From positions 215,691-279,690 of the forward strand of contig JAFRDH010000019.1 in assembly GCA_017403955.1 (NCBI GenBank): 64,000 nt of DNA, in the 5' to 3' direction. The translations under genes and the position numbers were made by a program. The notes below the pieces were generated by a model, which had not been told where the DNA came from, made no database searches, and saw only the letters and a program-made list of their open reading frames with translations. Shown here in pieces: positions 9,424-32,453 of the stretch. Position 1 is the first letter of the stretch, and each line of letters starts with the position of its first letter. The stretch is from Mogibacterium sp. (lineage in GTDB: Bacteria; Bacillota; Clostridia; Peptostreptococcales; Anaerovoracaceae).

Positions 9424-9452
9424 GTGACATTGCATATTTGTTATGCTACAAT
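9424..9452 (+). promoter_or_regulatory. Promoter of the C69 dipeptidase gene
   Basis: GTGACA (9424-9429), a 17-nt spacer and TACAAT (9447-9452) preceded by TGC, an extended -10. The upstream 9150-9420 stretch is AT-rich and repeats TTTATGCA-like words; no gene is supported there. Confidence 0.6.
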
Positions 9453-9496
9453 CGGTTCAATTACAAAAACCGTTGAACAAGAAAGAAGGTGCAATC

Positions 9497-11473
9497 ATGA
9501 AAAAGAAGGGTATTAAGAGGACTGCAGTATCATTAGTCACAGCTCTGATTATGGTACTGACCAGTGTGCAAATGGCATTCTGCTGCACAAACATGTATTT
9601 CGGCAGCGAGACCACAGAAAATGGTTCAACCTTCATCGGCAGATCAGAGGACTCCGGATGGTCCAAGTACATTAAATGTTATACGGTACATGATGCAGAG
9701 GATCACGAAGCAGGCGCTATGTACAAGAGCTTAAGTACCGGCTTCGAGATGCCTTATCCGGAACATACTTACCGCTATACTCTGGTAAAAGATACTACTG
9801 ATTATCCTGATCTGGTCGAAGAAGAGATGGCTCAGGCAGGAACCAATGAAATGGGCGTTGCTGTATCAGCTTCAGTAACATTGTCCGGACTCAAGTCCGA
9901 AATCAAAGCAGTAGATCCGATGGTAAGAGGCGGACTTTGTGAAGAAGACATTCCATCAGTCGTACTGATGCAGGCTTCTACCGCAAGACAGGGTGCCGAA
10001 GCGCTCGTAAATATATATGAAACACTCGGAGCAGGCGGAAGAGATATGACGATCATCGTTGATGACAAAGAAGCCTGGGTCGTTCAGTCCCTCTCAGGAC
10101 ATGTAGCTGCAGCTACTCTTTGTCCATCCAACATGGTCGCTACAACACCTAACATCACAGCAAACGTACCTGTCACAAATGACGAGAACACGATCGCTTC
10201 TACCAACCTCTACAGCGTTGCTGAAGCAGCAGAATCACTGGTAACAGATGCAGACGGCAATATCCTGGTCGCAGACAGCTATGCTGCAAAGCCAAAATCA
10301 ATGTCAAAGCGTCTCTACAACTGCTACCTCTACCTGAAGGGCGAAGAATTCGCAGACAGTGTTGAAGCAGCTACCACAGAGGCCGGCGGACAGTACATCG
10401 ATTACTTCCTTGAGCCAAGCGTCGAGAAATATTCAACATACGATGTTCTCATGAGTCTGGCATATCGTGGTGAAGGCGGCAAGTACTACGCTGATTCCTC
10501 AACAGGCAACAGCATCGGCATCGGCAACGACAACAACCTTGAAGTCCATATGTTCGAATCAAGAAAGAACATGCCTTACGAAATGGCAGTTGTTCAGTGG
10601 GAATCACTCGGACCGGTCGAATTCGGCTGCTACATCCCTGGATACAACGCACTTATCACAGACACGATCGAAGAGAACAAGATCGGTCTCGATACAATGA
10701 CATACAACTACGAGAATCCTGAACTCAACTCATTCCGTACCGCTTACTTCGAACTTTACTTCCTCTGCAAAGGAAGGGATAATCAGGACGGACTTACAGT
10801 CGGGACCGGCGAAGCAAGAGCGAAATACGGCGCAGGCGTAAAGGCATTCTGGGAAGCATATCAGAAAGAGCTGATCGCACAGCAGCCTGCAATCGATGCA
10901 GAGATGGCTAAGATCCTCGCATATGACAAGGGACTTGCAGAACAGAAAGCTACCGAGCTCAACAAGCATCTCCAGAAAGAATGCCTCGGATACGTAGTAC
11001 AGATGGTCAACGAGCTGAAAGCATTCGAGTCAACACCACAGGAAGGCGATTTCGTACCAAGCTGCATGGGACAGCTCCCTACCTACAGCTTCGAAGCGAT
11101 CGGGGGCACAGGACTCCCTGAAGAGACAGTAGAGCCAACACAGCCGACCAAGCCGGATAAGCCACATGTAACCAAGCCTGCAAAGGTAAAGAAGGCTTCT
11201 ATCAAGGTCAAGGGCACCATCAAGGTCAAGGCTAAGAAGAACACTAAGATCAAAGCAAACAAGGCATTTGTTGTAAAGAGCTCAAAGGCAGTTACTTATA
11301 AGAAGGTAAGCGGCAACAAGAAGATCACCGTAGCTAAGAACGGAACGATCACAGTCAAGAAGGGCCTCAAGAAAGGCGCAGTATACAAGATCAAAGTCAA
11401 GATCAAAGCCCCTGCAGGCAAGGGATACAGCGCACTTTCCAAGACCGTCACACTGAAGATCAAAGTCAAATAA
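9497..11473 (+). CDS. Secreted C69-family dipeptidase with C-terminal basic module
   Basis: N-terminal-nucleophile peptidase of the PepD/C69 family acting outside the cell on dipeptides or small peptides. The start ATG at 9497 follows GAAAGAAGG. Signal peptide (KKKGIKRTAVSLVTALIMVL... to MAFC) leads to CCTNMYFGSETTENGSTFIG; the second Cys is the expected autoprocessed nucleophile, followed by the family segment GRSEDSGWSK. The catalytic domain runs to ~residue 545, then a Pro/Thr linker (VEPTQPTKPDKPHVTKPAK) and a lysine-rich beta module (~575-658) with VSGNKKITVAKNGTITVKKG. The same C-terminal module ends the CAP protein at 35582-38230, so it may anchor proteins to the cell wall. Confidence 0.88.
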   Translation: MKKKGIKRTAVSLVTALIMVLTSVQMAFCCTNMYFGSETTENGSTFIGRSEDSGWSKYIKCYTVHDAEDHEAGAMYKSLSTGFEMPYPEHTYRYTLVKDTTDYPDLVEEEMAQAGTNEMGVAVSASVTLSGLKSEIKAVDPMVRGGLCEEDIPSVVLMQASTARQGAEALVNIYETLGAGGRDMTIIVDDKEAWVVQSLSGHVAAATLCPSNMVATTPNITANVPVTNDENTIASTNLYSVAEAAESLVTDADGNILVADSYAAKPKSMSKRLYNCYLYLKGEEFADSVEAATTEAGGQYIDYFLEPSVEKYSTYDVLMSLAYRGEGGKYYADSSTGNSIGIGNDNNLEVHMFESRKNMPYEMAVVQWESLGPVEFGCYIPGYNALITDTIEENKIGLDTMTYNYENPELNSFRTAYFELYFLCKGRDNQDGLTVGTGEARAKYGAGVKAFWEAYQKELIAQQPAIDAEMAKILAYDKGLAEQKATELNKHLQKECLGYVVQMVNELKAFESTPQEGDFVPSCMGQLPTYSFEAIGGTGLPEETVEPTQPTKPDKPHVTKPAKVKKASIKVKGTIKVKAKKNTKIKANKAFVVKSSKAVTYKKVSGNKKITVAKNGTITVKKGLKKGAVYKIKVKIKAPAGKGYSALSKTVTLKIKVK

Positions 11474-11583: not shown

Positions 11584-12462
11584 TCAGGCATGTCCGCCTT
11601 TGAGGATCGCCATCACCTCTGCGAGGTTCGGGCTCTTTCTCTGCAGCTTCTCGCCGGTCTGGAGTTTGAGGAATCCATCATATTTCTCATGTGGGAGTAC
11701 ATAGAACTGATCTTCCTCGATCGCTTTCCATACCTGCTCAGCATGTCCATCGATCGGATAACCTGTCTCAATCACATGCTTTGCTTCTGCCTGGCCCTTC
11801 TTGAACTCTTCACTCTGATAATACGGATCGCTGTCGTCTTTGAATCTCTCAGGACGATACCACTCACTATGGTCAAGATTTGTCTGTACATAGCCCGGGC
11901 AGAATACTCCCATAGCGATGTCAGCACCGATAGCCTGCAGTTCGTAGTTGATACTCTCAGCAAGAGCAACCGCTGCATGCTTGGTCGTATAATAAGGCAC
12001 CATTCCGATCCAGTTAATGACACCTGCTACCGAGCATGTGTTCATGATGTTGCAGTGAGTGCCCTGCTTGAGCATTACAGGAATGACCTGACGCATGAAA
12101 TAAACGTGTGACATAAGGTTGGTCTGAACGATCCACTCCCAGTCACGAAGCGGCAGATTGTATCCGTTGCCGGGTACAGCAACGCCTGCGTTGTTCATGA
12201 GAAGATCGATCTGGCCATACTTCTCAAGTGTAGCTTTAACGACTTTTTCAGTTTCTTCATAAATGCCTACGTCAGCAGTGATAAGAGTGATATCCTCTGC
12301 GCCGTTTTCTCTGGCAACCGCCTCGACTTTTGCAAGCTCATCGCCCATGATGTCTACCGCAACGATCTTCATGCCGCGGATAGCAGCCTGCTTAACGAAT
12401 TCTCTACCAAAGCCGTATGCTGCTCCGGTAATAATAGCAACTCTTCTTTTAAAATCTTTCAT
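11584..12462 (-). CDS. Short-chain dehydrogenase/reductase (partner of OYE-ADC copy 1)
   Basis: NAD(P)-dependent oxidoreductase of the classical SDR family, 292 residues. Start at 12462 is preferred (GGAGG just upstream); an ATG 18 nt earlier is possible. It shows VAIITGAAYGFGREF (TGxxxGxG cofactor loop), LLMNNAGVAVPGNGYN (NNAG), the catalytic Ser in NTCSVAGVIN and YYTTKHAAVALAES (YxxxK). Asp in VDIMGD after beta 2 suggests NAD(H) preference. It is 89 nt downstream of the OYE-ADC gene. Both halves of the double SDR at 22793-24586 are close paralogues, so it probably reduces or oxidises a hydroxyl/keto group on the product of the flavoenzyme; the substrate is unknown. Confidence 0.85.
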   Translation of the reverse strand: MKDFKRRVAIITGAAYGFGREFVKQAAIRGMKIVAVDIMGDELAKVEAVARENGAEDITLITADVGIYEETEKVVKATLEKYGQIDLLMNNAGVAVPGNGYNLPLRDWEWIVQTNLMSHVYFMRQVIPVMLKQGTHCNIMNTCSVAGVINWIGMVPYYTTKHAAVALAESINYELQAIGADIAMGVFCPGYVQTNLDHSEWYRPERFKDDSDPYYQSEEFKKGQAEAKHVIETGYPIDGHAEQVWKAIEEDQFYVLPHEKYDGFLKLQTGEKLQRKSPNLAEVMAILKGGHA

Positions 12463-12508
12463 AGCGTCCTCCGTTTTCATGAAATATCAGTCATATTGAA
12501 TCAGCGAG

Positions 12509-12550: not shown

Positions 12551-15364
12551 TTATTTGCGGCCGGTTTCCATGAATGTGGTTCTGTCATACCATGCAGGCA
12601 TGATCATTGGCATCAGTTCATCAGGATCTACGTCTTCGAGTTTCTGAAGTGCTGTGATGAGCAGGTTGTTTTCTGCATAAGCTCCGCCTACGATGGTGTT
12701 GACCGGCAGGCAGCCCCATGGATCGTCAACGCTGGAGTTGAGTTCAAGCTTGGTGATGTATCCAGGTGTCCATGCGTCATACAGATATTTGACCACGTTG
12801 CGGATAAGGCATGTGTTCTTGAAGCCCCATACACCGTTTTCATCAGGCAGACGGTCGAAGTGGAAGTAGTATCCGCTTCCGGCTGTTTCTTTGCCCGGAG
12901 CAGGTGCCTGGAAGAGCACGTGTGTCAGCGGATGGTTGTATGACCCGAGTTCCATTTCGACATCTATGATCTTAGCTCCGCGTCTTGCTACAGTTACTTT
13001 GACCTTGCCGTCATCCGTCTTCCTGATCACGAACTCTGATCCGAGCTTCTTAGGGATCGCTGAGTTATCGCGTCCGAGCTGTGTAGCCATCTCCGCGCCA
13101 TCTCCTCCAAGGAGCAGGCTGATAGGATACATTCCGAGCTGTCCTTTGTATGTGCAGTAAATACCGAGAATCGTCTCATAGTAGTTGTCTGCGAATGAAG
13201 GCTCCTTGATATGGCAAACCGAAAGTGTTACGACCGGTACCGAGAATGGTTCGAGCGGTGCCGGCAGCAGTTTGCGGATCGCAGCAGGATCTGTCAGGAA
13301 TGCAAGGTAGATACCTTCCTGCTTGTCCATTCTGGAGACTTTGGCAAAATTCTTCATGTCTTCTGCAGAAAGCACGAAGCTTGGCTCAGGCTTTTTGAAG
13401 AGATCAGCGCCGACTTCGTAGCCTGTCTTTGTAGCAGGAGCAATCGTTCCGTCCTGGATAGCAGAACCAACGAGCTTTACGCAGATTCCCTTTTCCTCGA
13501 GCGCTTCCTTGAGGCTCTGGTCCGGACGATATCCGAGCGACAGTACGACAGCCTCTGCATCGATCTTCTTCTCTTCCTTAGTGTCCACATTCTCTACAAG
13601 AACACCATCAGGCAGGATCTCCTTGAGTGCATGTCCGAGAGCCCAGTGGATATCCATCTTATTGAGTCTTGACATAACGTCTGCAACGTTGGTCTTGTAT
13701 GCATTCGTTCCCGCAGCCTTGAGCATATCTACGAATGTGACTTTGCAGCCCTTGTCTCCGAGATACTCGCCTGCTTCAAGTCCCGTGAGACCTGCGCCGA
13801 TCATAGCAACCGACTTGCCGGAGATATCCTTCTTGCCTGTCAGGACTTCCTCGATGGTGTATACATTGTCTCCGTTAACTCCAGGGAGTGATGCAGGGAA
13901 GATCGGAGCTGAACCTGTAGCAAGAACGACTGCATCCGGTTCCATTGCAGCGATCTCATCTGCAGTAGCCTCTTTGCCGAGTTGAACGTCAACACCAAGT
14001 TTAGCGAAGCTGTCTGCGAAGTAGTCTGCGATCCACTGCATTCTCTCTTTGAGTGGAGGAAGCTTAGCAAGATTAACGGTTCCGCCGAGTTCTTCCTGAC
14101 GATCGATAAGAGTGACCTTGACGCCTCTCTTTGCCAGAGTCTCAGCTGCTGTCATTCCGCCCGGGCCTCCGCCGACTACTACTACCTTATGGCCCTTTGT
14201 ATCCGGCTCGAGTTCGCCGAGTCTGTACTCATTACATGTGCGAGGGTTGACTGCGCACTCGAAAGGCAGGCCCTGTGCATTGAGTCCGAGCAGTGTCTCG
14301 AAGCATCTCAGGCAGTTGATACATCTCTTGAGCTCGCTCTCTCTGCCCTCCTGAACTTTGCGTCCCCATTCAGGGTCAGCAAGCCATGATCTGCCCATGC
14401 CGACGAAATCTACTACGCCGCCTTCGAGGAACGCTTCAGCGACTGCAGGCTCTCTGATAGCGGAAACAGCGATGACAGGTACAGATACGTGATCTTTGAC
14501 TGCCTTGATGAAGTCTTTTCTCCAGCCCTGCTGGAATGAGATCGGTTCAACCGATGTGATACCTGTTTCATAAAGACCGCAGCTGACATCGATGAAGTCA
14601 ACACCTGCTTTCTCAAGTACCATGCAGATCTTGATTCCATCCTGGATATGGATGTAGTCCTCAGTAACGCCGATATTGCCAAGGAATTCCTCTACAGAAA
14701 CACGGCATCCGAGAGCATAATCCTTTCCGCACTTTTTGCGGATATCTTCAATGATCTCGAGAACGATGCGCATGCGGTTCTCAAAGCTTCCGCCGTATTC
14801 ATCTGTTCTCTTGTTTGTGTATGGTGAGAGGAACTGCTGGAGCAGATATCCATGAGCGCAGTGAAGCTCGATACCATCGATTCCTGCTTTCTTGCAGCGA
14901 AGAGCAGCGTCTCCGAACTGACCGACGAGTTCATGGATCTCTTCGAGAGTCATCGGACGAGTCTCCTGCATGGATACTTTGCATACCCTGTCTGATGCGG
15001 ATACACATGGCTGTCCGCCGATAAGGGATGACATTCCCTCACGTCCCGGATGATGGAGCTGGATGAAGATCTTCGATCCATATTTATGAACAGTACTTGC
15101 GAGTTTAGCGAGTGACGGGATGTGTCTGTCGCTTGTTGCAGCGATCTGTCTGAACATTCCGACACCGGTCTTTTCATTTACTTTGCAGATTTCAGGCATG
15201 ATGAGTCCGCATCCGCCCTTTGCTCTTGCTTCGAAATAAGCGAGCATTGCAGGACCGACGGTACCGTCAAGCTCTGCAAGGTTGGTTCCCATAGGGGTCA
15301 TAACAAGGCGGTTCTTAAGTTCAACATTGCCTATTTTGCCCTTTTCAAATAGCTTATCGTACAT
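12551..15364 (-). CDS. OYE / Fe-S / FAD-NAD(P) oxidoreductase fused to an acetoacetate-decarboxylase-like domain (copy 1)
   Basis: Protein of 937 residues. Residues 1-~340: old-yellow-enzyme TIM barrel with FMN (VELKNRLVMTPMGTN, IFIQLHHPGREG, active-site HGYLLQQFLSPYTNKRTDEY). Then four cysteines in CINCLRC and FECAVNP for a 4Fe-4S cluster, spaced C-x2-C-x2-C-x15-C. Residues ~390-650: FAD and NAD(P)H dinucleotide folds (VVVVGGGPGGMTAAETLA; VAMIGAGLTGLEAGEYLG). This much resembles 2,4-dienoyl-CoA reductase, 2-enoate reductase, BaiCD and daidzein reductase. Residues ~690-937 match the acetoacetate-decarboxylase superfamily, with the Schiff-base lysine in AIPKKLGSEF. A combined reductase/decarboxylase or aldolase-like activity is inferred. 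Divergent from a PucR regulator; SDR follows. Confidence 0.85.
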   Translation of the reverse strand: MYDKLFEKGKIGNVELKNRLVMTPMGTNLAELDGTVGPAMLAYFEARAKGGCGLIMPEICKVNEKTGVGMFRQIAATSDRHIPSLAKLASTVHKYGSKIFIQLHHPGREGMSSLIGGQPCVSASDRVCKVSMQETRPMTLEEIHELVGQFGDAALRCKKAGIDGIELHCAHGYLLQQFLSPYTNKRTDEYGGSFENRMRIVLEIIEDIRKKCGKDYALGCRVSVEEFLGNIGVTEDYIHIQDGIKICMVLEKAGVDFIDVSCGLYETGITSVEPISFQQGWRKDFIKAVKDHVSVPVIAVSAIREPAVAEAFLEGGVVDFVGMGRSWLADPEWGRKVQEGRESELKRCINCLRCFETLLGLNAQGLPFECAVNPRTCNEYRLGELEPDTKGHKVVVVGGGPGGMTAAETLAKRGVKVTLIDRQEELGGTVNLAKLPPLKERMQWIADYFADSFAKLGVDVQLGKEATADEIAAMEPDAVVLATGSAPIFPASLPGVNGDNVYTIEEVLTGKKDISGKSVAMIGAGLTGLEAGEYLGDKGCKVTFVDMLKAAGTNAYKTNVADVMSRLNKMDIHWALGHALKEILPDGVLVENVDTKEEKKIDAEAVVLSLGYRPDQSLKEALEEKGICVKLVGSAIQDGTIAPATKTGYEVGADLFKKPEPSFVLSAEDMKNFAKVSRMDKQEGIYLAFLTDPAAIRKLLPAPLEPFSVPVVTLSVCHIKEPSFADNYYETILGIYCTYKGQLGMYPISLLLGGDGAEMATQLGRDNSAIPKKLGSEFVIRKTDDGKVKVTVARRGAKIIDVEMELGSYNHPLTHVLFQAPAPGKETAGSGYYFHFDRLPDENGVWGFKNTCLIRNVVKYLYDAWTPGYITKLELNSSVDDPWGCLPVNTIVGGAYAENNLLITALQKLEDVDPDELMPMIMPAWYDRTTFMETGRK

Positions 15365-15553
15365 AATTCATCCTCCTTACTGACAATAACTAAGGTAAGA
15401 TAATTTTATAACAATCCCCACAGTGCTGCCACGTTCACGATACATGAAATCATATTGACAATTTGTTTACCGTATACTAATCTCAGTACATGAAAAAAAC
15501 ATGTCAAGATTTGTTGTGTGGGGAATCTATTTTCAGGCGGAGGTCGATTATTC
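15365..15553. promoter_or_regulatory. Divergent control region between OYE-ADC copy 1 and PucR regulator 1
   Basis: AT-rich. TTGACA at 15455-15460 on the plus strand has no good -10 at 17 nt. On the minus strand TATAAA lies near 15400. The dyad ACATG-N7-CATGT at about 15488-15504 and a second TACATGAAA near 15441 are candidate regulator sites. The TTGTGCA motif found at the second module is absent. Confidence 0.4.
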
Positions 15554-17059
15554 ATGAAATTCAGTGAAATCATTGATTTTCTGGGGCAAAACACGGATAT
15601 TGAGGTGCTTTCCAGGGCTCCTGAGCACGAAATATCCAGAATCAGGCTCTGGGACGGCAATAATGCTAAACACCCCAATTCCACCCTGTATTTTAGTTAT
15701 GAGAGACAACCGGAAATCTGGCCGGAGAACTTCATACTGATATCCGACGACCCGGAAAAACCTGCAAACGGTAAGCCCGGCAACCTTGCAGTGATTCCTT
15801 CATCGCAGTTCGCAGCAGTCTTCAACAGCATCCAGGACATCATTACAGGCCGGAGCAATGAAGATTTTTACAATCATCTTATGGATGTTGCGGATAATGT
15901 CCGCAATGTCGAGGCCCTGATCGATGTAGCTTCGCAGTCCTTTAACGCGTCACTGGTTCTGATAGACAGAGATTTCAGGATCCTTGCATATTCAACGCAG
16001 GTGCCTGTAACAGATGAATTATGGGCAGACAATATCAGGAAAGGATACTGTGATTATGAATTTATCAGCGAAGTCCGCAAACTGAAGTCTGTTCAGATGG
16101 CAGATTCAAGTTCCGCGCCGTTCGAGGTGACATGCAAGGCATCTCCTTACCGGAAGCTGGCATGCAGGGTATATTGCAAAGATGCATGGATCGGTTCCCT
16201 TCTTCTTATCGAAGGAGATAATACATATGTCACCAGTCATGTAGAAATGCTCCGAGTTCTGAGCGGTGTCACAGGTTATTCTATTCTCGCGCATTCCCCT
16301 GAACTCCTGTACAGGACAAGTGACTACCACAGTTTCCTTTACAATCTCATCATCGGAACTCCCCCGGAGAACCTTCCGGAGGCATATCGGAATCTTGAAT
16401 TTGCAGACAGCATGAAGGTCCTGTACTTTAAATCTGCCAACGAAGACGGTTCCTTTGTCAGAGGTTCTGAAGTCCGCGAATCATTCCACAAAATGATGCC
16501 TGACTGTCACGTCATTTCTCACCGCAAAGCTGTGATCGTAGTTTGCAGTCTTGATGAATATACGGATGCCAATGATTTGGTGGATCTCTTCCTTCCTGAG
16601 AGTAATGTCCGGGTCGGAGTCAGCACAACTTTTCACAACATCCAGCTCCTTAAAAATGCACTGGCCGAAGCACATGACGCACTCAAAACAGGATCCGTGC
16701 TCGAGCCTCAGAGCCGCGTCTTCTCTTTTGACAAGTACAGCACATACATTCTGCTTGATCATTTGTCGGAGTCTGAGTCATTGACCAGATATTATCATCA
16801 GGCCATACCGTTCCTACTGGAATACGATAAGATCAACAACACTGAGCTTCTCCGTACTCTGAGAGAGTACCTGAAGAACAATTGCAGCATAAAAGACACT
16901 GCCACGGCGCTGTTTTTGCACCGGAACAGTGTCATATACAGGCTCAGCAGGATCAATTCCCTGTGCGGGATCGATCTTGATGACCCGGATGTGCGTTTCA
17001 GCCTGCGACTGTCCTTCTGCATCCTGCAGATTTCTGGAAAGACTGCGAAGCACCGCTGA
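15554..17059 (+). CDS. PucR-type transcriptional regulator 1
   Basis: DNA-binding regulator of 501 residues. Start at 15554 is chosen from GGAGG upstream and from the matching start of its paralogue at 27758 (both M[KR]FSEII). The N-terminal half resembles ligand-sensing regions (FNASLVLIDRDFRILAYSTQ), with a middle GGDEF-like/CdaR segment, and the C-terminal PucR helix-turn-helix is clear: DTATALFLHRNSVIYRLSRI then CGIDLDDPDVRFSLRLSF. Divergent from OYE-ADC copy 1, so it probably controls that gene and the SDR in response to their substrate. Not linked to purine genes here. Confidence 0.82.
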   Translation: MKFSEIIDFLGQNTDIEVLSRAPEHEISRIRLWDGNNAKHPNSTLYFSYERQPEIWPENFILISDDPEKPANGKPGNLAVIPSSQFAAVFNSIQDIITGRSNEDFYNHLMDVADNVRNVEALIDVASQSFNASLVLIDRDFRILAYSTQVPVTDELWADNIRKGYCDYEFISEVRKLKSVQMADSSSAPFEVTCKASPYRKLACRVYCKDAWIGSLLLIEGDNTYVTSHVEMLRVLSGVTGYSILAHSPELLYRTSDYHSFLYNLIIGTPPENLPEAYRNLEFADSMKVLYFKSANEDGSFVRGSEVRESFHKMMPDCHVISHRKAVIVVCSLDEYTDANDLVDLFLPESNVRVGVSTTFHNIQLLKNALAEAHDALKTGSVLEPQSRVFSFDKYSTYILLDHLSESESLTRYYHQAIPFLLEYDKINNTELLRTLREYLKNNCSIKDTATALFLHRNSVIYRLSRINSLCGIDLDDPDVRFSLRLSFCILQISGKTAKHR

Positions 17060-22731: not shown

Positions 22732-22793
22732 TCATTTGGTTGCAATCATTTGGTTGCGATCATCTGGTTGTGATCATCTGATTGTAGTCATCT
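22732..22793. repeat. 14-bp tandem repeat, about 4.4 copies
   Basis: Units TCATTTGGTTGCAA, TCATTTGGTTGCGA, TCATCTGGTTGTGA, TCATCTGATTGTAG, then TCATCT. The array ends at the stop codon of the double SDR gene and so forms the start of its 3' untranslated region. Too short and without spacers to be CRISPR. Confidence 0.9.
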
Positions 22794-24586
22794 TATTTCA
22801 GATAGCCTCTAAGTGGTCCGCCCGGAAGGTTGGTCACATCCTTGATAGCATCTGAGATCGATGCGACTTCAGGGTTGGTCCTTGCGATAGTCTGTTCCAC
22901 CTGTTTGATGATGTGTTCATCATATTCACGGTGAGTGACTACATAGAACTCGTCCTTCTCGATCGCGTCAAAGACTCTTGCGCCAAATCCTTCGATCGGG
23001 TAGCCTGTTCCGATAACGAACTGAGCAGCAGCCTTGCCCTTCGCAAAGATATCGCTCTGATAGTACGGATCATCTCCGTGAGCATATCTTGGAGGACGAT
23101 ACTCATCAGCATGATCGAAGCTTGTGCGTACAAATCCCGGACAGAATACTCCAAGGTGGATATCCGAGCCGGTCTCCTGCATCTCGTATTCGATGCACTC
23201 AGACAGAGCAACAGCAGCGTTCTTTGTTGTGTAGTATGCTGCCATGCCTGTGCTGGTGATGAGTCCTGCGACAGAGCATGTGTTCATGATGTTGCAGTGT
23301 GTGCCCTGTTTTCTCATGATTGGAATTACCTGCCTCATGAAGTAAACGTGTGACAGGTAGTTCGTGCGGAAGATCCACTCCCAATCCTGCAGCGGAATCA
23401 CGAATCCAGGTCCAGGCGTGCAGGTTCCTGCATTGTTCATCAGGAGGTCGATCTGTCCCCACTTGTCCATTACCGCATTAACAACTTTTTCAGTCTCTTC
23501 ATACAGCGATACGTCTGCAGGTATGATCATGATATCTTCTGCACCGTATTCTTTTGCAACGTCTTCGATCTTGGCAAGTTCGTCAGCCATGATATCTACA
23601 GCTGCGATCTTCATCTTTCTCTTGGCTGCTTCTTTGACGAATTCCTTACCGAATCCGAATGCAGCACCGGTGATGATTGCTACTCTGCCCGTCAGATCTC
23701 TGTCTCCCTTCTCATATTCCTTAGGCTGTTTGCCTACGTTTCTGAGATCCGGGTTAACATTGTTGACACTGTCGTAGATCTGCTTTCTGATCAGAGGATC
23801 ATACTGAGGATGTGTTACGATATAGAACTGATCGTTCTCGATCGCCTCAAAGCATTTCTCGCCAAAGCCATCGATCGGAAGTCCTGTGGTAACGACGTGT
23901 TCGCTTGCCTTTTCAAACAGCTGGAACTCTGCGCTTGAATAGTACGGATCTGTAGGATCGGAGAATCTTGCAGGTCTGTGGCGCTCAGCGTGGTGAAGGT
24001 CGGTCTGAACAAATCCAGGGCAGAAAATACTGATATGGATGTTTTCTACGCCGATCTCTTTGAGCTCGTTACGGGTCGCGCGGCTCAGTGAAACAGCAGC
24101 ATGCTTGGTCGAATAGTAGCCAGGCATCGCATTACTTGTGATAAGTCCTGCGATCGAGCATACGTTGAGAATATTGCAATGTGTTCCCTGCTTCATCATG
24201 ATAGGAATTACCTGTCTCATCATGTAAATATGTGAGAAGACATTGGCATACATCATCCATTCCCAATCTCTCAGAGGAAGGTTTGCGATCATGCCGCCCT
24301 TACCTGTCCCTGCATTGTTGATCAGAAGGTCGATCTGTCCCCATTTTTCCATTGCTGTCTTGACGATCTTCTGGGTGTCCTCGAACAGAGATACATCAGC
24401 CTGCAGACATACGATCTCTTCTGCACCGAGTTCTTTTGCCAGAGGCTCCACCAGCTGGACCTCATCTCCTTCGATATCTACAGCCAGGATCTTCATTCCG
24501 CGCTTAGCAGCTTCTTTGACATATTCTTTACCAAAGCCGTTGGCAGCTCCGGTAATTATTGCCACTTTGCCTTTAAAGTCTTTCAT
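22793..24586 (-). CDS. Tandem double-domain short-chain dehydrogenase (SDR-SDR fusion)
   Basis: One 597-residue protein holding two complete classical SDR domains. Domain 1 (~1-290): VAIITGAANGFGKEYVKEAA, LLINNAGTGKG, Ser in NVCSIAGLIT, YYSTKHAAVSLSRA. Domain 2 (~300-597, after linker VGKQPKEYEKGDRDLTGR): VAIITGAAFGFGKEFVKEAA, LLMNNAGTCTPG, NTCSVAGLIT, YYTTKNAAVALSEC. Both active sites (S-YxxxK) and cofactor loops are intact, and both domains resemble the single-domain SDR at 11584-12462, domain 2 more so. It follows OYE-ADC copy 2 by 11 nt. The two domains might interconvert two positions or two epimers of a hydroxyl group; substrate unknown. Confidence 0.88.
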   Translation of the reverse strand: MKDFKGKVAIITGAANGFGKEYVKEAAKRGMKILAVDIEGDEVQLVEPLAKELGAEEIVCLQADVSLFEDTQKIVKTAMEKWGQIDLLINNAGTGKGGMIANLPLRDWEWMMYANVFSHIYMMRQVIPIMMKQGTHCNILNVCSIAGLITSNAMPGYYSTKHAAVSLSRATRNELKEIGVENIHISIFCPGFVQTDLHHAERHRPARFSDPTDPYYSSAEFQLFEKASEHVVTTGLPIDGFGEKCFEAIENDQFYIVTHPQYDPLIRKQIYDSVNNVNPDLRNVGKQPKEYEKGDRDLTGRVAIITGAAFGFGKEFVKEAAKRKMKIAAVDIMADELAKIEDVAKEYGAEDIMIIPADVSLYEETEKVVNAVMDKWGQIDLLMNNAGTCTPGPGFVIPLQDWEWIFRTNYLSHVYFMRQVIPIMRKQGTHCNIMNTCSVAGLITSTGMAAYYTTKNAAVALSECIEYEMQETGSDIHLGVFCPGFVRTSFDHADEYRPPRYAHGDDPYYQSDIFAKGKAAAQFVIGTGYPIEGFGARVFDAIEKDEFYVVTHREYDEHIIKQVEQTIARTNPEVASISDAIKDVTNLPGGPLRGYLK

Positions 24587-24597
24587 GATAGCCTCCT

Positions 24598-27408
24598 TTA
24601 TTTTCTGCCGCCTTCCATGAAGGTCGTTTTGTCATACCATGCAGGCATAATGAGTTTCATCGTGGACTCTGCATCAACATCTTCAAGCTTCTGGAGTGCT
24701 GTGATGAGCAGGTTGTTGTGAGCATAAGCGCCGCCTATGATAGTGTTGACCGGCAGGCAGCCCCATGGATCATCGATGCTTGACTTGAGTTCGAGTTTGT
24801 TAACGAATCCCGGTTTCCAGTCATCGTAGTTGTATACGCATACATTTCTGATCAGGCAGGTGTTTGTGAATTTCCATACACCGTTCTCATCAGGCAGTCT
24901 GTCAAAGTGGAAGTAATATCCGCTTCCCTTGGTTTCTGCGCCAGGAGCCGGTGCCTGATACAGTACATGTGTGAGAGGATGGTTGTACTGACCGAGTTCC
25001 ATTTCAACATTCACTACCTGTGTTCCGCGTCTTGCAACACTGACTGAGATCTTTCCGTCATTGTCTCTGATCACAAATTCCGCATCCAGTTTCTTAGGAA
25101 TCGCTGAGTTGTCACGGCCGAGCTGTGTTGCCATTTCAGCGCCGTCTCCTCCGAGGAGCAGGCTGATCGGATAAAGTCCGAGCTGTCCGTTGTATGTGCA
25201 GTATACGCCGAGGATCGTCTCATAGTAGTTGTCTGCAAATGTCGGATCCTTGATGTGGCAGACTGAAAGTGTTACTACCGGCATCGAGAATGGCTTGAGC
25301 GGTGGAGGCAGGATCTTCGCGATCGCTTCAGGCTGTGTGAGGTATGCGAGATAGATTCCTTCCTGGCCTCTCATGTGAGATACTTCAGCGAACTTTTTGA
25401 ACTGTTCATCGCTGATCTTGAAGCTTGGTTCTTCCTTCTTGAACAGTTCTGCACCTACTTCATATCCGCCGCGGGATGCAGGTGCGATCGTTCCGTCAAC
25501 GACAGCAGATCCGATGACCTTTACGCAGAGGCCCTTTTCTTCGAGTCCTGCCTTGAGGCTCTGATCAGGTTTGTAACCAAGTGACAGTACGACTGCATCA
25601 GCATCGAGCTTCTTCTCTTCCTTAGTATCAACGTTTTCAACAATGACTCCGTCAGCTGTGATCTCCTTGAGAGCATTTCCGAGCTCATACTTTGCACCGA
25701 GCTTTGCAAGTCTTGTCTGTACGTCTACTACATTCAGTCTGTAAGCATTAGGCGCAGCGACCTTGAGCATATCGACGATCGTTACATCAGCTCCGGTTTC
25801 TGCGACGTATTCTGCTGCTTCAAGACCTGTGAGTCCGGCACCGATCATGGCTACCTTCTTGCCTGAAAGATCGACCTTGCCGTTAAGTACATCATTTACT
25901 GCAAATACATTGTCACCGTTAACGCCAGGGATCTTCGATGGGAATATCGAAGTTGATCCTGTTGCAAGAACGACTGCATCCGGTTCCATTGCAGCGATCT
26001 CATCTACTGTAGCTTCTTTGCCGAGGCAGATCTTGACGCCGCTCTTCTTCATATCCTGTGCCAGATAATCGATGAACCACTGCATCCTTTCTTTCCGCGG
26101 AGGTTTCTTAGCGAGGTTTACTGTACCGCCGAGTTCTTCCTGACGGTCGATAAGTGTAACATCAACACCTCTCTTAGCCAGAGTAGCAGCAGCATACATT
26201 CCGCCAGGACCGCCGCCGATAACGACTGCCTTCTTGTCGGAAGTAACAGGCTCGAGTTCTCCGTAACGGAGCTCGTTGCATGCTCTCGGGTTGACTGCGC
26301 ATTCATAAGGCAGACCCGCAGCATTGAGTCCGAGCAGTGATTCGAAGCATCTGAGGCAAGCGATACACTTGTTCAGTTCATCTTCTCTGCCTTCCTGTAC
26401 TTTTCTTCCCCACTCAGCATCTGCGATCCATGTTCTGCCCATTCCTACGAAGTCGACTACGCCTTCCTCGAGGAAGTTCTGAGCAACAGCAGGCTCTCTG
26501 ATAACAGATACAGCGATAACAGGAATATTGACTACGTCTTTTACTGCCTTTACGAATGGTTTTCTCCAGCCCTGAGGGAATGAGATAGGCTCAACCGAGA
26601 AGCTTCCTGTTTCATACAGGCCATCGGATACATCGATAAAGTCGATGCCTTCTGCCTCAAGTGCTTTTACGATTTTGATACCGTCTTCGAGTCTGATCTG
26701 ATCTCCTGTGTATCCGATCTTGTCGAGGAATTCAACAACAGATACTCTGCAGCCGAGTGGGAAGTCAGGACCGCACTTCTCACGGATATCTCTGATGATC
26801 TCAACGACTATGCGGAGTCTGTTCTCAAAGCTTCCGCCATATTCGTCTGTTCTGTAGTTTGTGTAAGGCGAGAGAAACTGCTGCAGCAGATAACCATGAG
26901 CGCAGTGGAGCTCGATACCGTCGATGCCTGCCTTCTTGCAGCGAAGAGCAGCGTCACCGAACTGTCCTACGAGTTCATGGATCTCATCGATCGTCATCGG
27001 ACGTGTCTCCTGCTGAGAAACTTTGCAGACACGGTCTGATGCGGATACACATGGCTGTCCGCCGATAAGTGAAGATACTCCCTCTCTGCCAGGGTGATGG
27101 AGCTGGATGAATATCTTTGATCCGTGTTTGTGAACAGCTGCAGCCAGCTCAGCAAGGCCTTTGATGTGATAGTCCTTGGTCGCCGCGATCTGTCTCAGCA
27201 TTCCTGCTCCGGTTTTTTCATTTACTCTGCAGATCTCAGGCATAATGAGTCCGCAGCCGCCTTTTGCCCTGTCCTCATAATATTTGATCAAAGCAGGGCC
27301 GGGAGTTCCGTCGAGGTTAGCAAGGTTTGTTCCCATAGGGGTCATTACAAGTCTGTTTTTCAGCTCGACATTCCCGATTTTTCCTTTTTCAAATAGTTTT
27401 TCGTACAT
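24598..27408 (-). CDS. OYE / Fe-S / FAD-NAD(P) oxidoreductase fused to an acetoacetate-decarboxylase-like domain (copy 2)
   Basis: 936 residues with the same four-part layout as copy 1 and high similarity along its whole length. OYE barrel: VELKNRLVMTPMGTNLA, QLHHPGREG, HGYLLQQFLSPYTNYRTDEY. Cys set CIACLRC and YECAVNP. FAD fold VVIGGGPGGMYAAATLAKRG, NAD(P) fold VAMIGAGLTGLEAAEYVA. ADC-like domain from ~690 with FADNYYETILGVYCTYNGQL and the Schiff-base lysine in SAIPKKLDAEF. Ribosome site AGGAGC precedes the ATG. It is divergent from PucR regulator 2 and followed by the double SDR. Retention of all active-site motifs argues that the fusion is functional and not an accident. Confidence 0.85.
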   Translation of the reverse strand: MYEKLFEKGKIGNVELKNRLVMTPMGTNLANLDGTPGPALIKYYEDRAKGGCGLIMPEICRVNEKTGAGMLRQIAATKDYHIKGLAELAAAVHKHGSKIFIQLHHPGREGVSSLIGGQPCVSASDRVCKVSQQETRPMTIDEIHELVGQFGDAALRCKKAGIDGIELHCAHGYLLQQFLSPYTNYRTDEYGGSFENRLRIVVEIIRDIREKCGPDFPLGCRVSVVEFLDKIGYTGDQIRLEDGIKIVKALEAEGIDFIDVSDGLYETGSFSVEPISFPQGWRKPFVKAVKDVVNIPVIAVSVIREPAVAQNFLEEGVVDFVGMGRTWIADAEWGRKVQEGREDELNKCIACLRCFESLLGLNAAGLPYECAVNPRACNELRYGELEPVTSDKKAVVIGGGPGGMYAAATLAKRGVDVTLIDRQEELGGTVNLAKKPPRKERMQWFIDYLAQDMKKSGVKICLGKEATVDEIAAMEPDAVVLATGSTSIFPSKIPGVNGDNVFAVNDVLNGKVDLSGKKVAMIGAGLTGLEAAEYVAETGADVTIVDMLKVAAPNAYRLNVVDVQTRLAKLGAKYELGNALKEITADGVIVENVDTKEEKKLDADAVVLSLGYKPDQSLKAGLEEKGLCVKVIGSAVVDGTIAPASRGGYEVGAELFKKEEPSFKISDEQFKKFAEVSHMRGQEGIYLAYLTQPEAIAKILPPPLKPFSMPVVTLSVCHIKDPTFADNYYETILGVYCTYNGQLGLYPISLLLGGDGAEMATQLGRDNSAIPKKLDAEFVIRDNDGKISVSVARRGTQVVNVEMELGQYNHPLTHVLYQAPAPGAETKGSGYYFHFDRLPDENGVWKFTNTCLIRNVCVYNYDDWKPGFVNKLELKSSIDDPWGCLPVNTIIGGAYAHNNLLITALQKLEDVDAESTMKLIMPAWYDKTTFMEGGRK

Positions 27409-27757: not shown

Positions 27758-29287
27758 ATGAGATTCAGCGAAATAATCGAACACCTCAGAGATTTGTCTG
27801 TCTTAGAAGTCATTTCTTCAGATATTGACGAGGAGATAACCGAAGTAAAGTTCATAGATCCCCGTCAGAAACAATTTAGCAGCAGTGTTCTGTATTTCAG
27901 CAACAGAAAGCAGGACTTCAATTCTCTTCCGCCTCAGTGCATCATAACCGATCAGAATGACATAAATAATGCCGGTGTGGCTGGCGGGAATATCGCATTG
28001 GTCCCGGAAAATGACTTCGGATATGTCTTCAACAGCGTGTTCCAGATGGTCGCAGACTCGCACAAAGACAGGTTCTATGATTCTCTTATGAGAACACTCG
28101 ATGGCGTCAGGAATGTCGATGCTCTTATAGACATTGCATCGCAGGCTTTCGGAGCTTCTCTTATTTTTATCGACCGGGATTTCCGTATTCAGGGTTATTC
28201 CACACAGATACCGGTCACCGACAAATTATGGAAACGGAACATCGAGCAGGGTTATTGCGACTATGAGTTCATCAAAGCCGTCAAATCGCTCAAGTCTGTC
28301 CAGATGTCCGACTCGTCCATGTCAGCAATCGAAGTCTCCTGCACTTCCTCGCCGTTCAAGAAATTCTCATGCAAAGTCTTCTGCCGCGATATTTGGGTGG
28401 GTTACATCATAGTCATCGAAAATAATGAGTCTTACAGGCCTGAACACGCGGAAATGCTCAAGACTCTGAGCGGGGTGCTTGGTTATGCCGTCATGAAATA
28501 TGAGCCGAATTATCTGTATATGACGAGCGAATACCATAGTTTCCTGTACAATCTCATAATAGGTGCAGATATATCATCCTTGCCGGAAGCATACAGGAAT
28601 CTGTCGTTCCCTTCTGAGATGCAGGTTTTCTACTGCCGGGCCACGGCCAACAAGCAGGCATTCCCGCAGGAGAGAGATCTGACCAATCATCTGGCATCTG
28701 TTTTCCCTGATTGTCACGTTATAGGGCGCAGGCACAGCGCCGCTATTCTGGGAAGTCACAGCATGCTGTCAAGAGTCGGCCTGATGCTTTCTGCATTCCC
28801 CTCTGAATGTCACGTCAAAGTCGGGACCAGTCTCCCCTTCGAAGACATTTCTGAATTGAAAAGCCACTATGATGAAGCTCACGACGCGTTTGAACTCGGA
28901 GAGACCATAGACCCTGACCTCAGCATTTACACGTTCGAAGATTACGGATTATATGTGATGCTGCGCACAGTAGAGTCATCGGAAAATCTCAGCAGATATC
29001 TCCACCCTGCTCTTCCCAAGCTTGCGGCTTATGATCTGGATAACGGGAGCAATCTCGAGCTCACTCTGCATACATATCTGAAATGCGCCTGCAACACCAC
29101 AGAGACAGCAGAATCGCTTTTCCTCCACAGGAACAGCGTCATATACAGGCTCCGGCGCATCGAGGAACTTTGCGGGATCGACCTGAACGATACCGACCTC
29201 AGATTCAGGCTCAGGCTGTCCTTCGCCATCAACAACGTTATTAACGGCAAGCGTAAATGGAATGCTGAACGCCCTGCTTCTGGATAG
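27758..29287 (+). CDS. PucR-type transcriptional regulator 2
   Basis: 509-residue paralogue of the regulator at 15554-17059, beginning MRFSEIIEHLRDLSVLEVIS after AAAGGAGG. It shares the segments FGASLIFIDRDFRIQGYSTQ, CDYEFIKAVKSLKSVQMSDS and TSEYHSFLYNLIIGAD, and ends with the PucR helix-turn-helix TAESLFLHRNSVIYRLRRIE and CGIDLNDTDLRFRLRLSF. Its divergent promoter region and the promoter of the next unit share TTGTGCA-type repeats, so it probably controls OYE-ADC copies 2 and 3 together. The effector is unknown, likely the substrate of these enzymes. Confidence 0.82.
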   Translation: MRFSEIIEHLRDLSVLEVISSDIDEEITEVKFIDPRQKQFSSSVLYFSNRKQDFNSLPPQCIITDQNDINNAGVAGGNIALVPENDFGYVFNSVFQMVADSHKDRFYDSLMRTLDGVRNVDALIDIASQAFGASLIFIDRDFRIQGYSTQIPVTDKLWKRNIEQGYCDYEFIKAVKSLKSVQMSDSSMSAIEVSCTSSPFKKFSCKVFCRDIWVGYIIVIENNESYRPEHAEMLKTLSGVLGYAVMKYEPNYLYMTSEYHSFLYNLIIGADISSLPEAYRNLSFPSEMQVFYCRATANKQAFPQERDLTNHLASVFPDCHVIGRRHSAAILGSHSMLSRVGLMLSAFPSECHVKVGTSLPFEDISELKSHYDEAHDAFELGETIDPDLSIYTFEDYGLYVMLRTVESSENLSRYLHPALPKLAAYDLDNGSNLELTLHTYLKCACNTTETAESLFLHRNSVIYRLRRIEELCGIDLNDTDLRFRLRLSFAINNVINGKRKWNAERPASG

Positions 29288-29639: not shown

Positions 29640-32453
29640 ATGTACGATATACTATTTCAGAAAGGCAAAATAGGCAATGTCGAGTTAAAGAACAGGCTCG
29701 TTATGTCCCCAATGGGAAGCAATCTCGCAGAGCTTGACGGTTCTGCAGGAGATGCAATGATCGCCTATTATGAAGAAAGAGCCAAGGGAGGCTGCGGACT
29801 GATCATGCCTGAGATCTGCCGTGTCAATGATGCGACCGGCGCAGGTTCATTCAGACAGCTTTCCGTTACTAAGGACCGCCACATCGAAGGACTGGCTAAA
29901 CTCGCTGCTGCTGTCCACAAACACGGTTCCAAGATTTTCATCCAGCTCCATCACCCGGGCAGAGAAGGTGTATCCAAACTGATCGGCGGCAAGCCTTGTG
30001 TATCCGCGTCAGACCGCATGTGCCTTTTCTCAAGGCAGGAGACCCGTGCCCTGACACTCGATGAAGTACATGAACTGATCGAACAGTTCAGCGATGGTGC
30101 TGTAAGATGTCAGAAAGCAGGTATCGATGGTATCGAACTTCACTGTGCTCACGGATATCTTCTCGAGCAGTTCCTCTCGCCATATACCAACTTCCGTACA
30201 GACGAATACGGCGGGAATTTCGAGAACAGAATGCGTTTTGTCAAAGAGATCATAGAAAAGATCCGTGAGAAATGCGGACCTGACTACCCTGTAGGAATCA
30301 GACTCTCAGTAGATGAGATGCTTGAGTACAACGGAGTAAAGGAAGATTATATCACCCTCGAAGAAGGCGTTAAGATCGTCAAATACTTCGAAGAAGTCGG
30401 GATCGACTTTATCGATGTCAGTTGCGGTATCTATGAGACAATGAACTTCGCGATCGAGCCTACTTCATTCCCTGAAGGCTGGAGAAGACCGATGATCCAG
30501 GCTGTCAAGGATGCGGTCAAGATCCCTGTTATGGCTGTAAGTGCGATCAGAAGCCCTGAGATCGCAGCTCAGTTCATCGAAGAAGGCGTCTATGACTTCG
30601 CTGAGTTCGGAAGAACATGGCTCGCAGAACCTGAATGGGGCGTCAAAGTACAGGAAGGCCGTATCAGTGAGCTCAACAAGTGCATCAACTGCCTGCGCTG
30701 CTTCGAGACACTTCTCGGCATCAACGCACAGCTCCTCCCATTCCAGTGCGCAGTCAATCCGCGTATGGGAAGAGAGTTCAAGCTCGGCGATCTCGAACCG
30801 GCTCCTGCAGGCAAAACTGCAATAGTAGTAGGCGGAGGTCCAGGCGGAATGTATGCTGCAAGGACACTCGCACAGAGAGGCGTCAAGGTCACACTCTTTG
30901 ACCGCAAGGAAGAGCTCGGCGGAACCATCAATCTGGCAAAGCTTCCTCCTCTCAAGGAAAGAATGCAGAACTTCATCGACTATATGAGCAATGAGCTCGG
31001 AAGACTCGGTGTTGATGTGAAACTCGGAAAGGACGTATCAGCTGACGATATCGCAGCTATGGCTCCTGACGCAGTCGTTCTCGCTACAGGTTCGAAGAGC
31101 ATAGTTCCTTCAAGCATCCCTGGAGCTGACGGTGCTAACGTATTCACCGTAGAAGAAGCTCTTACAGGCAAAGTGGATTTCACAGGCAAGCACGTTGCAA
31201 TGATCGGTGCAGGTCTTACCGGACTGGAAGCTGCTGAATGCCTCGGAGAGAAAGGCATCAAAGTCACGATCGTTGACATGGTAGACCGTCCTGCACCTAC
31301 AGCTTACTTCGCCAATGTAATGGATGTAATGAGCAGGATCAGGAAGATGGATGTCACTCTCGAACTCAAGAATGCCCTCAAGGCTGTCGAAGCAGATGGC
31401 GTTTGCATCGAGAATGTCGAGACAGGCGAACAGAAGAAGATCGAATGCGATGCTGTAGTAATGTCGCTCGGATATAAACCTGATCAGAGCCTCAAGGCTG
31501 CACTCGAAGAGAAAGGCCTCTGTGTAAAGCTGGTCGGTTCCGCAATCGTCGACGGAACGATGGGCCCTGCTACCAGAAGCGGTTACGATGTCGGTGCAGA
31601 GCTGTTCAGAGCTGAGAAGCCAAGCTTTATTGTTTCAAAGGAAAAGATGGCGAAGTTCGCAACAGACTGCGCTATGAAGAAGCAGGAAGGTATCTACATG
31701 CTGTACTCAACAGATCCTGCTGCAATAAGAAGGATCCTGCCGGCACCGCTTGAGCCATACTCACTGCCTCTTGTATACCTGTCAGCTAACCACATCAACG
31801 AGCCTACATTCGCAGACAACTACTATGAATCGATCCTCGGTGTTTATGCTACTTATAAGGGCCAGCTCGGTCTCTACTGCATCAGTCTGGTGCTCGGAGG
31901 TCAGGGTGCAGAAATGGCGACTGCTCTCGGACGTGATGTACTGTCGATCCCTAAGAAGGTCGATGCTGAATTCGTTATCAGAAAGGATGACGCTGCAGGC
32001 AAAGTCACTGTAGGCGTATCCAGAAGAGGAACCCAGCTGATCGATATGACGCTCAGACTCGGTGAGTACAACCATCCGATGACTCACCTGATCTTCCAGG
32101 CTCCATCTGCCGGAAGACAGACACAGGGCTACGGTTACTACATGCACTTCGATCAGATGCCTGATGCTGAAGGCGGATTCAAGTTCAATACCGCACTCAC
32201 CAAGGTGCTCTGCAAGTATGATTATAAAGGCTGGATCCCTGCATTTGTCGAGGATCTCAAACTCAAATCAAGCGTAGACGATCCTTGGGCAGAACTTCCG
32301 GTCGAAACTATTATCGGTGCAGGATATTCACAGAATGATCTCTATCTCGGACCAAGCCAGTTCGTAGAAGAAGCTGATCCGGATGAAGTGATCCCTAAGA
32401 TCCTGCCTGCATGGTATGACCTCAGTGCTTTCGGAGTCACGGGAAGAAAATAA
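29640..32453 (+). CDS. OYE / Fe-S / FAD-NAD(P) oxidoreductase fused to an acetoacetate-decarboxylase-like domain (copy 3)
   Basis: 937 residues, same architecture as copies 1 and 2 but the most divergent. OYE barrel: VELKNRLVMSPMGSNLAELD, QLHHPGREG, HGYLLEQFLSPYTNFRTDEY. Cys set CINCLRC and FQCAVNP. FAD fold VVGGGPGGMYAARTLAQRGV and NAD(P) fold MIGAGLTGLEAAECLGEKG. ADC-like domain with FADNYYESILGVYATYKGQL and lysine motif LSIPKKVDAEF; the end differs (DQMPDAEGGFKFNTALTKVL). It starts after CAGGAGGG and has no SDR beside it. Likely works on a related but different substrate, or is expressed under other conditions. Confidence 0.85.
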   Translation: MYDILFQKGKIGNVELKNRLVMSPMGSNLAELDGSAGDAMIAYYEERAKGGCGLIMPEICRVNDATGAGSFRQLSVTKDRHIEGLAKLAAAVHKHGSKIFIQLHHPGREGVSKLIGGKPCVSASDRMCLFSRQETRALTLDEVHELIEQFSDGAVRCQKAGIDGIELHCAHGYLLEQFLSPYTNFRTDEYGGNFENRMRFVKEIIEKIREKCGPDYPVGIRLSVDEMLEYNGVKEDYITLEEGVKIVKYFEEVGIDFIDVSCGIYETMNFAIEPTSFPEGWRRPMIQAVKDAVKIPVMAVSAIRSPEIAAQFIEEGVYDFAEFGRTWLAEPEWGVKVQEGRISELNKCINCLRCFETLLGINAQLLPFQCAVNPRMGREFKLGDLEPAPAGKTAIVVGGGPGGMYAARTLAQRGVKVTLFDRKEELGGTINLAKLPPLKERMQNFIDYMSNELGRLGVDVKLGKDVSADDIAAMAPDAVVLATGSKSIVPSSIPGADGANVFTVEEALTGKVDFTGKHVAMIGAGLTGLEAAECLGEKGIKVTIVDMVDRPAPTAYFANVMDVMSRIRKMDVTLELKNALKAVEADGVCIENVETGEQKKIECDAVVMSLGYKPDQSLKAALEEKGLCVKLVGSAIVDGTMGPATRSGYDVGAELFRAEKPSFIVSKEKMAKFATDCAMKKQEGIYMLYSTDPAAIRRILPAPLEPYSLPLVYLSANHINEPTFADNYYESILGVYATYKGQLGLYCISLVLGGQGAEMATALGRDVLSIPKKVDAEFVIRKDDAAGKVTVGVSRRGTQLIDMTLRLGEYNHPMTHLIFQAPSAGRQTQGYGYYMHFDQMPDAEGGFKFNTALTKVLCKYDYKGWIPAFVEDLKLKSSVDDPWAELPVETIIGAGYSQNDLYLGPSQFVEEADPDEVIPKILPAWYDLSAFGVTGRK

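Follow-up and report, generated by a model that had tools for sequence, protein, structure and literature searches.

A family of old yellow enzymes fused to an acetoacetate-decarboxylase-like domain, with three copies in a Mogibacterium genome

The stretch of DNA analysed here (the window: 64,000 nucleotides, positions 215,691 to 279,690 of contig JAFRDH010000019.1, Mogibacterium sp. assembly GCA_017403955.1) carries three long open reading frames (ORFs), F1, F2 and F3. In each of them an old yellow enzyme (OYE) domain, a presumed 4Fe-4S site and an FAD/NAD(P) domain are followed by a domain of the acetoacetate decarboxylase (ADC) superfamily. The three copies and the parts of F1, with the amino acid (aa) lengths of the products, are as follows.

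12551..15364, minus strand: fusion copy F1, 937 aa, with OYE, 4Fe-4S, FAD/NAD(P) and ADC-like parts (ORF and Pfam)
14330..15364, minus strand: F1 residues 1-345, Oxidored_FMN domain, in which H168/H171/Y173 align with EIHAAHGYL of YqjM
14255..14323, minus strand: F1 residues 348-370, with Cys348/351/354/370, the presumed 4Fe-4S site
13502..14188, minus strand: F1 residues 393-621, FAD/NAD(P) domain (Pyr_redox_2, Pfam)
12554..13384, minus strand: F1 residues 661-937, ADC-like domain, Pfam match 672-910 (Pfam and fold)
13046..13051, minus strand: F1 K772-K773, aligned with K115-K116 of the ADC 3bh2
24598..27408, minus strand: fusion copy F2, 936 aa (ORF and Pfam)
25090..25095, minus strand: F2 K772-K773
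29640..32453, plus strand: fusion copy F3, 937 aa (ORF and Pfam)
31953..31958, plus strand: F3 K772-K773

Pfam places Oxidored_FMN at residues 4-343 of F1 (E-value 4.7e-79), Pyr_redox_2 at 393-621 (2.2e-33) and ADC (PF06314) at 672-910 (4e-39). Both reductase domains are found in the other copies as well, together with the ADC domain (5.3e-38 in F2 and 5.2e-36 in F3), and the three PF06314 scores of 124.8-135 bits compare with a curated cut-off of 29.8. Oxidored_FMN, then the four-cysteine motif, then Pyr_redox_2 is the OYE-FeS-FAD architecture of 2,4-dienoyl-CoA reductase-like enzymes. F1 is 77% identical to F2 and 66% identical to F3, and all three copies have the four Fe-S cysteines (348, 351, 354, 370), H168/H171/Y173, both GxGxxG motifs and K772/K773. 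An earlier note, made from this DNA alone, had described a four-part fusion occurring three times in the window with its key motifs kept, and had proposed the ADC domain search; the ORFs and Pfam matches bear this description out, except that the copy at 12551..15364 lies on the minus strand and that the reductase portion, put at about 680 residues, stops close to residue 655 (NF041087, the BaiCD model, matches 2-653). That model is matched at only 479.7, 466.7 and 459.9 bits by the three copies against a cut-off of 825, so that the fusions were ruled out as BaiCD equivalogs. A PF06314 profile search of the genome, which comprises 2.2 Mb in 25 contigs and is 95.1% complete, returned no ADC domain beyond those of F1, F2 and F3.

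The fusion of OYE and ADC-like parts is an established family. The ADC part, used as the query in a scan of genome contigs, retrieved 44 loci, and at 41 of these it shares one ORF with the OYE part, the FAD part or both, some of the 41 being cut at contig ends; L046 is without the FAD part. Two of the remaining three loci (L047 and L052) are cut by a contig end, while the third has its parts in separate frames. At this third locus (L036:4246-7001) the start of the ADC part is missing, and it is either a broken copy or an assembly fault. Record titles describe 38 of the 44 loci as from metagenome-assembled genomes (MAGs) and name an animal gut site for 20; named records among them are Mogibacterium timidum, Baileyella intestinalis and Mobilibacterium timonense. 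The fusion is also present in the single-contig genomes G284 (a chromosome of 4,044,777 bases), G1164 and G1171. Within the window's own family, nine of 197 genomes match, its own included, and eight of the nine have the ADC part in frame with the FAD part, the OYE part or both. In genus g175, which belongs to another family of the same class, nine of 19 genomes match and five, G284 among them, carry the fusion. The earlier note had called for the phylogenetic spread of the fusion, and the 41 loci together with the five g175 genomes bear on it. Wider samples, which overlap and include the window's own genome, have PF06314 matches in 10 of 391 genomes for the class, 14 of 398 for the phylum and 29 of 297 for the order, with a frame longer than 900 aa in two, one and seven of the matching genomes, respectively.

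Structure prediction gives the C-terminal part an ADC fold, as the earlier note had expected. Modelled alone, it has a mean predicted local distance difference test (pLDDT) score of 89.4, and in a Foldseek comparison with the PDB the 24 best chains all belong to the ADC superfamily (E-values 2.2e-14 to 2.7e-11, the next match being at 7e-4). The matches include 3bgt, 3bh2, 3c8w, MppR, Swit_4259 and the aldolase-dehydratase of S. bingchenggensis. Of these, 3bh2 and 3bgt are the ADCs of C. acetobutylicum and C. violaceum, and Swit_4259 is an aldolase-dehydratase. According to their PDB titles, these fold relatives have been solved as a pyruvate Schiff-base complex (aldolase-dehydratase, 4zbt), with a dienone product (aldolase-dehydratase, 6eej) and with a pyruvate condensation product (MppR, 4jmd).

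We inspected an alignment of 48 ADC rows (four true ADCs, the three window copies, 24 other fused, 10 OYE-linked and five OYE-less rows, and two of another clade), especially at the positions of the C. acetobutylicum active site. Q682 of F1 corresponds to R29, S715 to E61, E730 to E76, K772 to K115 and K773 to K116, the placement of K772 resting on alignment to 3bh2 and 3bgt. Equivalents of K115, K116 and E76 are found in all 48 rows, while R29 and E61 are found in all four true ADCs and in none of the other 44 rows; throughout the 27 fused rows R29 is replaced by Q, E61 by S and E109 by D. At the E30 column two linked rows have Tyr, which may mean that this region is misaligned. A second alignment gave the same picture, with R29 and E61 in seven of seven true ADCs and in none of eight fused, three linked and 11 stand-alone ADC-like proteins; a few distant stand-alone proteins also lack K116 or E76. 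R29 and E61 are probably important for decarboxylation by true ADC. All fused domains have replaced both yet retain K115, K116 and E76, so that the label "acetoacetate decarboxylase" is probably a misnomer for this domain, and we rejected it. The loss extends to all 11 stand-alone proteins and so sets apart proteins other than true ADCs, not fusions as such. The conserved lysine of the I-P-K-K motif in the earlier note is thus present in 27 of 27 fused rows, while decarboxylation in the manner of true ADC, which the note had also entertained, is weakened. The retro-aldol or hydration step that the note named as well is still a candidate.

In the OYE half, H168, H171, Y173 and the four cysteines occur in 27 of 27 fused rows and in 10 of 10 separate OYE partners. 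The best PDB match of the OYE half alone is the enone reductase YqjM (2e-49), and the reductase part can be aligned with 1ps9 over residues 2-539 and with 6qkg over residues 1-653.

A tree built from 46 ADC domains groups the 27 fused rows in one clade (support 99/98; 200 of 200 bootstrap trees), although it is midpoint-rooted and the program warns of possibly false joins between long branches. In a FastTree phylogeny of the OYE part, too, the fused rows stay together (1.0). To gauge selection we compared F1, F2 or F3 with a homologue from another genome in eight pairs by the Nei-Gojobori method. The ratio of nonsynonymous to synonymous substitution rates (dN/dS) is 0.03-0.06 for the OYE part, 0.06-0.11 for the FAD part (seven pairs, with one saturated) and 0.06-0.16 for the ADC part, values that are rough because many dS exceed 1; between the window copies it is 0.13-0.30. 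The fused ADC part is under purifying selection, as the earlier note had supposed of the fusion.

Genes for short-chain dehydrogenases/reductases (SDRs) and for PucR-type regulators lie next to the fusions in the window.

11584..12480, minus strand: SDR (adh_short, Pfam), 70 bp downstream of F1
15518..17059, plus strand: PucR-type regulator (HTH_30, Pfam), divergent from F1
22793..24586, minus strand: tandem double SDR, 597 aa (Pfam), 11 bp downstream of F2
27758..29287, plus strand: second PucR-type regulator (Pfam), divergent from F2 and upstream of F3

F1 and F2 are thus each divergent to a PucR-type regulator and followed by an SDR gene on the same strand, and F3 stands behind the second regulator on the plus strand. 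L035, L038-L045, L048 and L055 are among the several relatives in which a double SDR like that at 22793-24586 follows the fusion. In L053, L058 and L059 the SDR is upstream of the fusion, and in L054 it is on the other strand. At all five fused loci of g175 the regulator, the fusion and the SDR occur together. Besides these three, no neighbouring gene family recurs in more than eight of the 44 loci: the eight-locus family is of 3-hydroxyacyl-CoA-dehydrogenase type and adjoins the F3-type set (L035:2695-3654, beside an SDR, is an example and the one member tested, at 380.7 bits against a cut-off of 312 for NF006143), a family found in seven loci is a frame running antisense to the fusion region, and the others recur in four or five loci. 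At L028:8932-9684 a PF04199 cyclase gene lies directly behind the fusion, in the place of the SDR; this prompted us to consider a phloroglucinol-type ring cleavage, which we dropped: it concerns one locus only, and a term search of PMC10470551 met with no mention of flavin, acetoacetate decarboxylase or PF04199. Elsewhere in the window, 9443-11473 encodes a C69 family peptidase whose start is signal-like and whose C-terminal tail is rich in lysine.

Unfused counterparts lie closest to the fused ADC clade on the tree, namely the separate genes of G1125, G377, G1174 and G1172. OYE and ADC genes adjoin one another in G1125 and G377, and in G1174 and G1172 an SDR gene stands between them; no PucR match was found beside the separate genes of these four genomes. 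In G377 (L125:5109-11762) the genes for a glycyl-radical enzyme, its activase, the ADC-like protein and the OYE stand in a row, and the glycyl-radical enzyme scores 986.7 bits with a sulfopropanediol dehydratase model whose cut-off is 1000. Among relatives of G601, 17 of 120 genomes match, all of them in genus g330 and 16 of them strongly. Eight of these 16 have OYE, ADC and SDR as separate genes in that order, divergent from a PucR gene, and the separate-gene genomes are large (6.8-8.5 Mb). As the same four genes stand there separately in the same layout, the F1 arrangement is the fused form of the g330 set. At L159 and L162 there is a 4-base overlap between the OYE and ADC frames; at L160 and L161 an antisense frame masks one gene in the ORF filter, and tblastn or profile matches revealed it.

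Several known systems resemble parts of the fusion. The 2,4-dienoyl-CoA reductase (1ps9) and 2-naphthoyl-CoA reductase (6qkg) have the same three-part redox chain but no ADC domain, and the YqjM-type H168/H171 pair is absent from the aligned part of 1ps9. Acetoacetate decarboxylases (3bh2, 3bgt) share the fold, K115/K116 and E76 with the fused domain, which differs in having Q and S for R29 and E61 and in being joined to a reductase. The ADC-like aldolase-dehydratases, Swit_4259 (5upb) and those of S. bingchenggensis (4zbo/4zbt/6eej), together with MppR (4jm3), have the same fold and lysine, and the R29 position of 5upb is likewise not Arg in the alignment, but identity by fold search is only 12-16%. 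The ADC-like aldolase-dehydratases are also called family V. PMC12238238 describes an OYE scaffold with a C-terminal 3beta-hydroxysteroid dehydrogenase (3beta-HSDH)/isomerase partner; these BaiCD/steroid 5beta-reductase fusions of gut Bacillota are also OYE-4Fe-4S-FAD chains with a C-terminal enzyme, whereas the partner here is ADC-like rather than a Rossmann dehydrogenase and the score is little over half the BaiCD cut-off. PMC10367076 touches on the ADC superfamily. The open-access literature searched yielded no paper on a fusion of OYE and ADC; OYE fusions with another partner have already been published (PMC12238238). Contig 15 of the window's own genome (L178:1635-4610) holds another fusion on the same scaffold, 991 aa long, with the OYE-FAD part followed by an SDR domain.

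Given the published partner, and since the halves also occur as separate neighbouring genes, the earlier note went too far in speaking of a new enzyme type; of its interpretation as a whole, the four-part architecture, the ADC fold, the PKK lysine and the selection stand, while this label and true-ADC decarboxylation do not fare as well.

As to function, we tentatively favour, while regarding it as possible rather than probable, a bifunctional flavoenzyme that couples enone reduction to non-classical Schiff-base chemistry (aldol-dehydration, or hydration or dehydration) on one substrate. Judged from sequence, the redox chain is the standard one for the OYE scaffold, and the ADC half keeps the residues expected to form an imine. 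Electrons would pass from NAD(P)H through FAD and the 4Fe-4S cluster to FMN, which would reduce the C=C bond of an alpha,beta-unsaturated carbonyl compound. The ADC-like domain may bind a ketone as a Schiff base on K772, with K773 lowering the pKa of K772, and would catalyse the step that precedes or follows the OYE reduction of that molecule. An aldol condensation with loss of water, or a hydration or dehydration, could make or consume an enone such as OYEs reduce; the adjoining SDR, where present, would interconvert ketone and alcohol, and the divergent PucR-type regulator would control the set. Acetoacetate-type decarboxylation is most likely not the step, because R29 and E61 of true ADC are gone. 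Preferring aldol-dehydration to the other Schiff-base steps is a guess, and a somewhat doubtful one. More specifically, the protein might be a one-chain reductive aldol enzyme, its ADC-like half condensing an aldehyde with pyruvate or another keto acid and dehydrating the product, and its OYE half reducing the resulting enone; we consider this specific form unlikely, though the glycyl-radical gene that precedes the separate genes in G377 could supply such an aldehyde.

A number of observations weigh against this proposal. The loss of R29 and E61 singles out no particular reaction, since all 11 stand-alone proteins lack them too, and the fused clade is closer in sequence to true ADCs (3bgt, 1e-14) than to Swit_4259 (5upb, 0.056) or MppR; the 5upb match has E-values of 0.056 with profile A5 and 2.1e-7 with profile A7 (separate genes), and true ADCs score better with both. 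The full-length model, whose first structural matches are 2-naphthoyl-CoA reductase and 2,4-dienoyl-CoA reductase, is poor (pLDDT 72.1, predicted template modelling score 0.45) and too weak for domain contacts. Nor is the ADC step always tied to a reductase: the other eight strong g330 matches have a divergent PucR gene, ADC and SDR without OYE in the stretch seen (only 3.8 kb in G1247, G1218 and G1249), and 20 fetched regions comprise three with the fusion, three in which OYE and an ADC-like gene are separate neighbours (L113, L122, L125) and 14 with an ADC-family gene and no OYE match. The neighbours are not universal either. An SDR stands directly downstream of the fusion in only 28 of 44 loci, and 12 loci, some of them cut, have no SDR match (L016-L020, L026, L028, L046, L049-L051, L056), including the uncut L016-L019, which are nearest to F1. 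A PucR-type match occurs in only 27 of 44 loci, some of which are cut, and there is none in the several kilobases upstream that were covered for L017-L020, L028 and L057.

Closest in standing is a doubtful alternative, a reductive decarboxylase: an unsaturated beta-keto acid would be reduced by the OYE half and then turned into a ketone by the ADC domain through decarboxylation, or, in a variant, a dehydrogenase supplies the beta-keto acid from a 3-hydroxy acid instead of the OYE step. The kept equivalents of K115, K116 and E76 fit this scheme, as does the fact that the nearest solved sequences are true ADCs, and the 3-hydroxyacyl-CoA-dehydrogenase-type gene beside the F3-type set hints at 3-hydroxy or 3-oxo acids; against it, the equivalents of R29 and E61 are gone in every fused and linked row. 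A steroid or bile-acid enzyme, with the OYE half reducing a ring enone and the ADC half isomerising or cleaving a bond through a dienamine, is improbable. Directly upstream of the OYE-ADC fusion in L020 lies a 1154-aa fusion of OYE-FeS-FAD with a 3beta-HSD/epimerase-like domain (L020:2342-5806), whose OYE part exceeds the BaiCD cut-off (1090.1 bits) and whose architecture is that of the steroid 5beta-reductase fusions in PMC12238238. An extended SDR beside OYE and ADC in L122 is similar to HpnA and SdmB, below the cut-offs of both, and the gut sites in the record titles would suit such a substrate. However, this HSD-like domain was matched only at L020 among all loci, many of which reach little upstream, the OYE-ADC fusions themselves score only 460-480 bits with the BaiCD model, and the separate-gene sets of g330 sit in genomes of 6.8-8.5 Mb. 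Quite improbable is an ADC-like domain that is non-catalytic and only binds substrate or holds an oligomer together: the changes at R29, E61 and E109 would be in keeping with it, but it is opposed by the retention of K115, K116 and E76 in all 48 rows, in contrast to the loss of K116 or E76 from some more distant stand-alone proteins, and by the purifying selection on the ADC part. A chance fusion or assembly artefact with no functional link, which the many MAG titles might bring to mind, can be dismissed in view of the three window copies, the 41 loci, the single-contig genomes, the single clade and the neighbouring unfused forms.

A number of anaerobic bacteria carry the fusion, and many of these come from animal guts. 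We found no tested reaction for this coherent family, in which the lysine is an obvious target for mutation and the pairing of reactions is plain, and for which the separate-gene sets of other genera would provide simple two-protein controls. If the two halves share a substrate, as the coupled flavoenzyme that we tentatively favour would require, the family would be an uncommon case of anaerobes linking Schiff-base chemistry with flavin ene-reduction, which may help in understanding how plant or host compounds are metabolised in gut and rumen and could be of use in biocatalysis. Were it a reductive aldol enzyme, an anaerobe would form a new C-C bond and dispose of reducing power in one protein.

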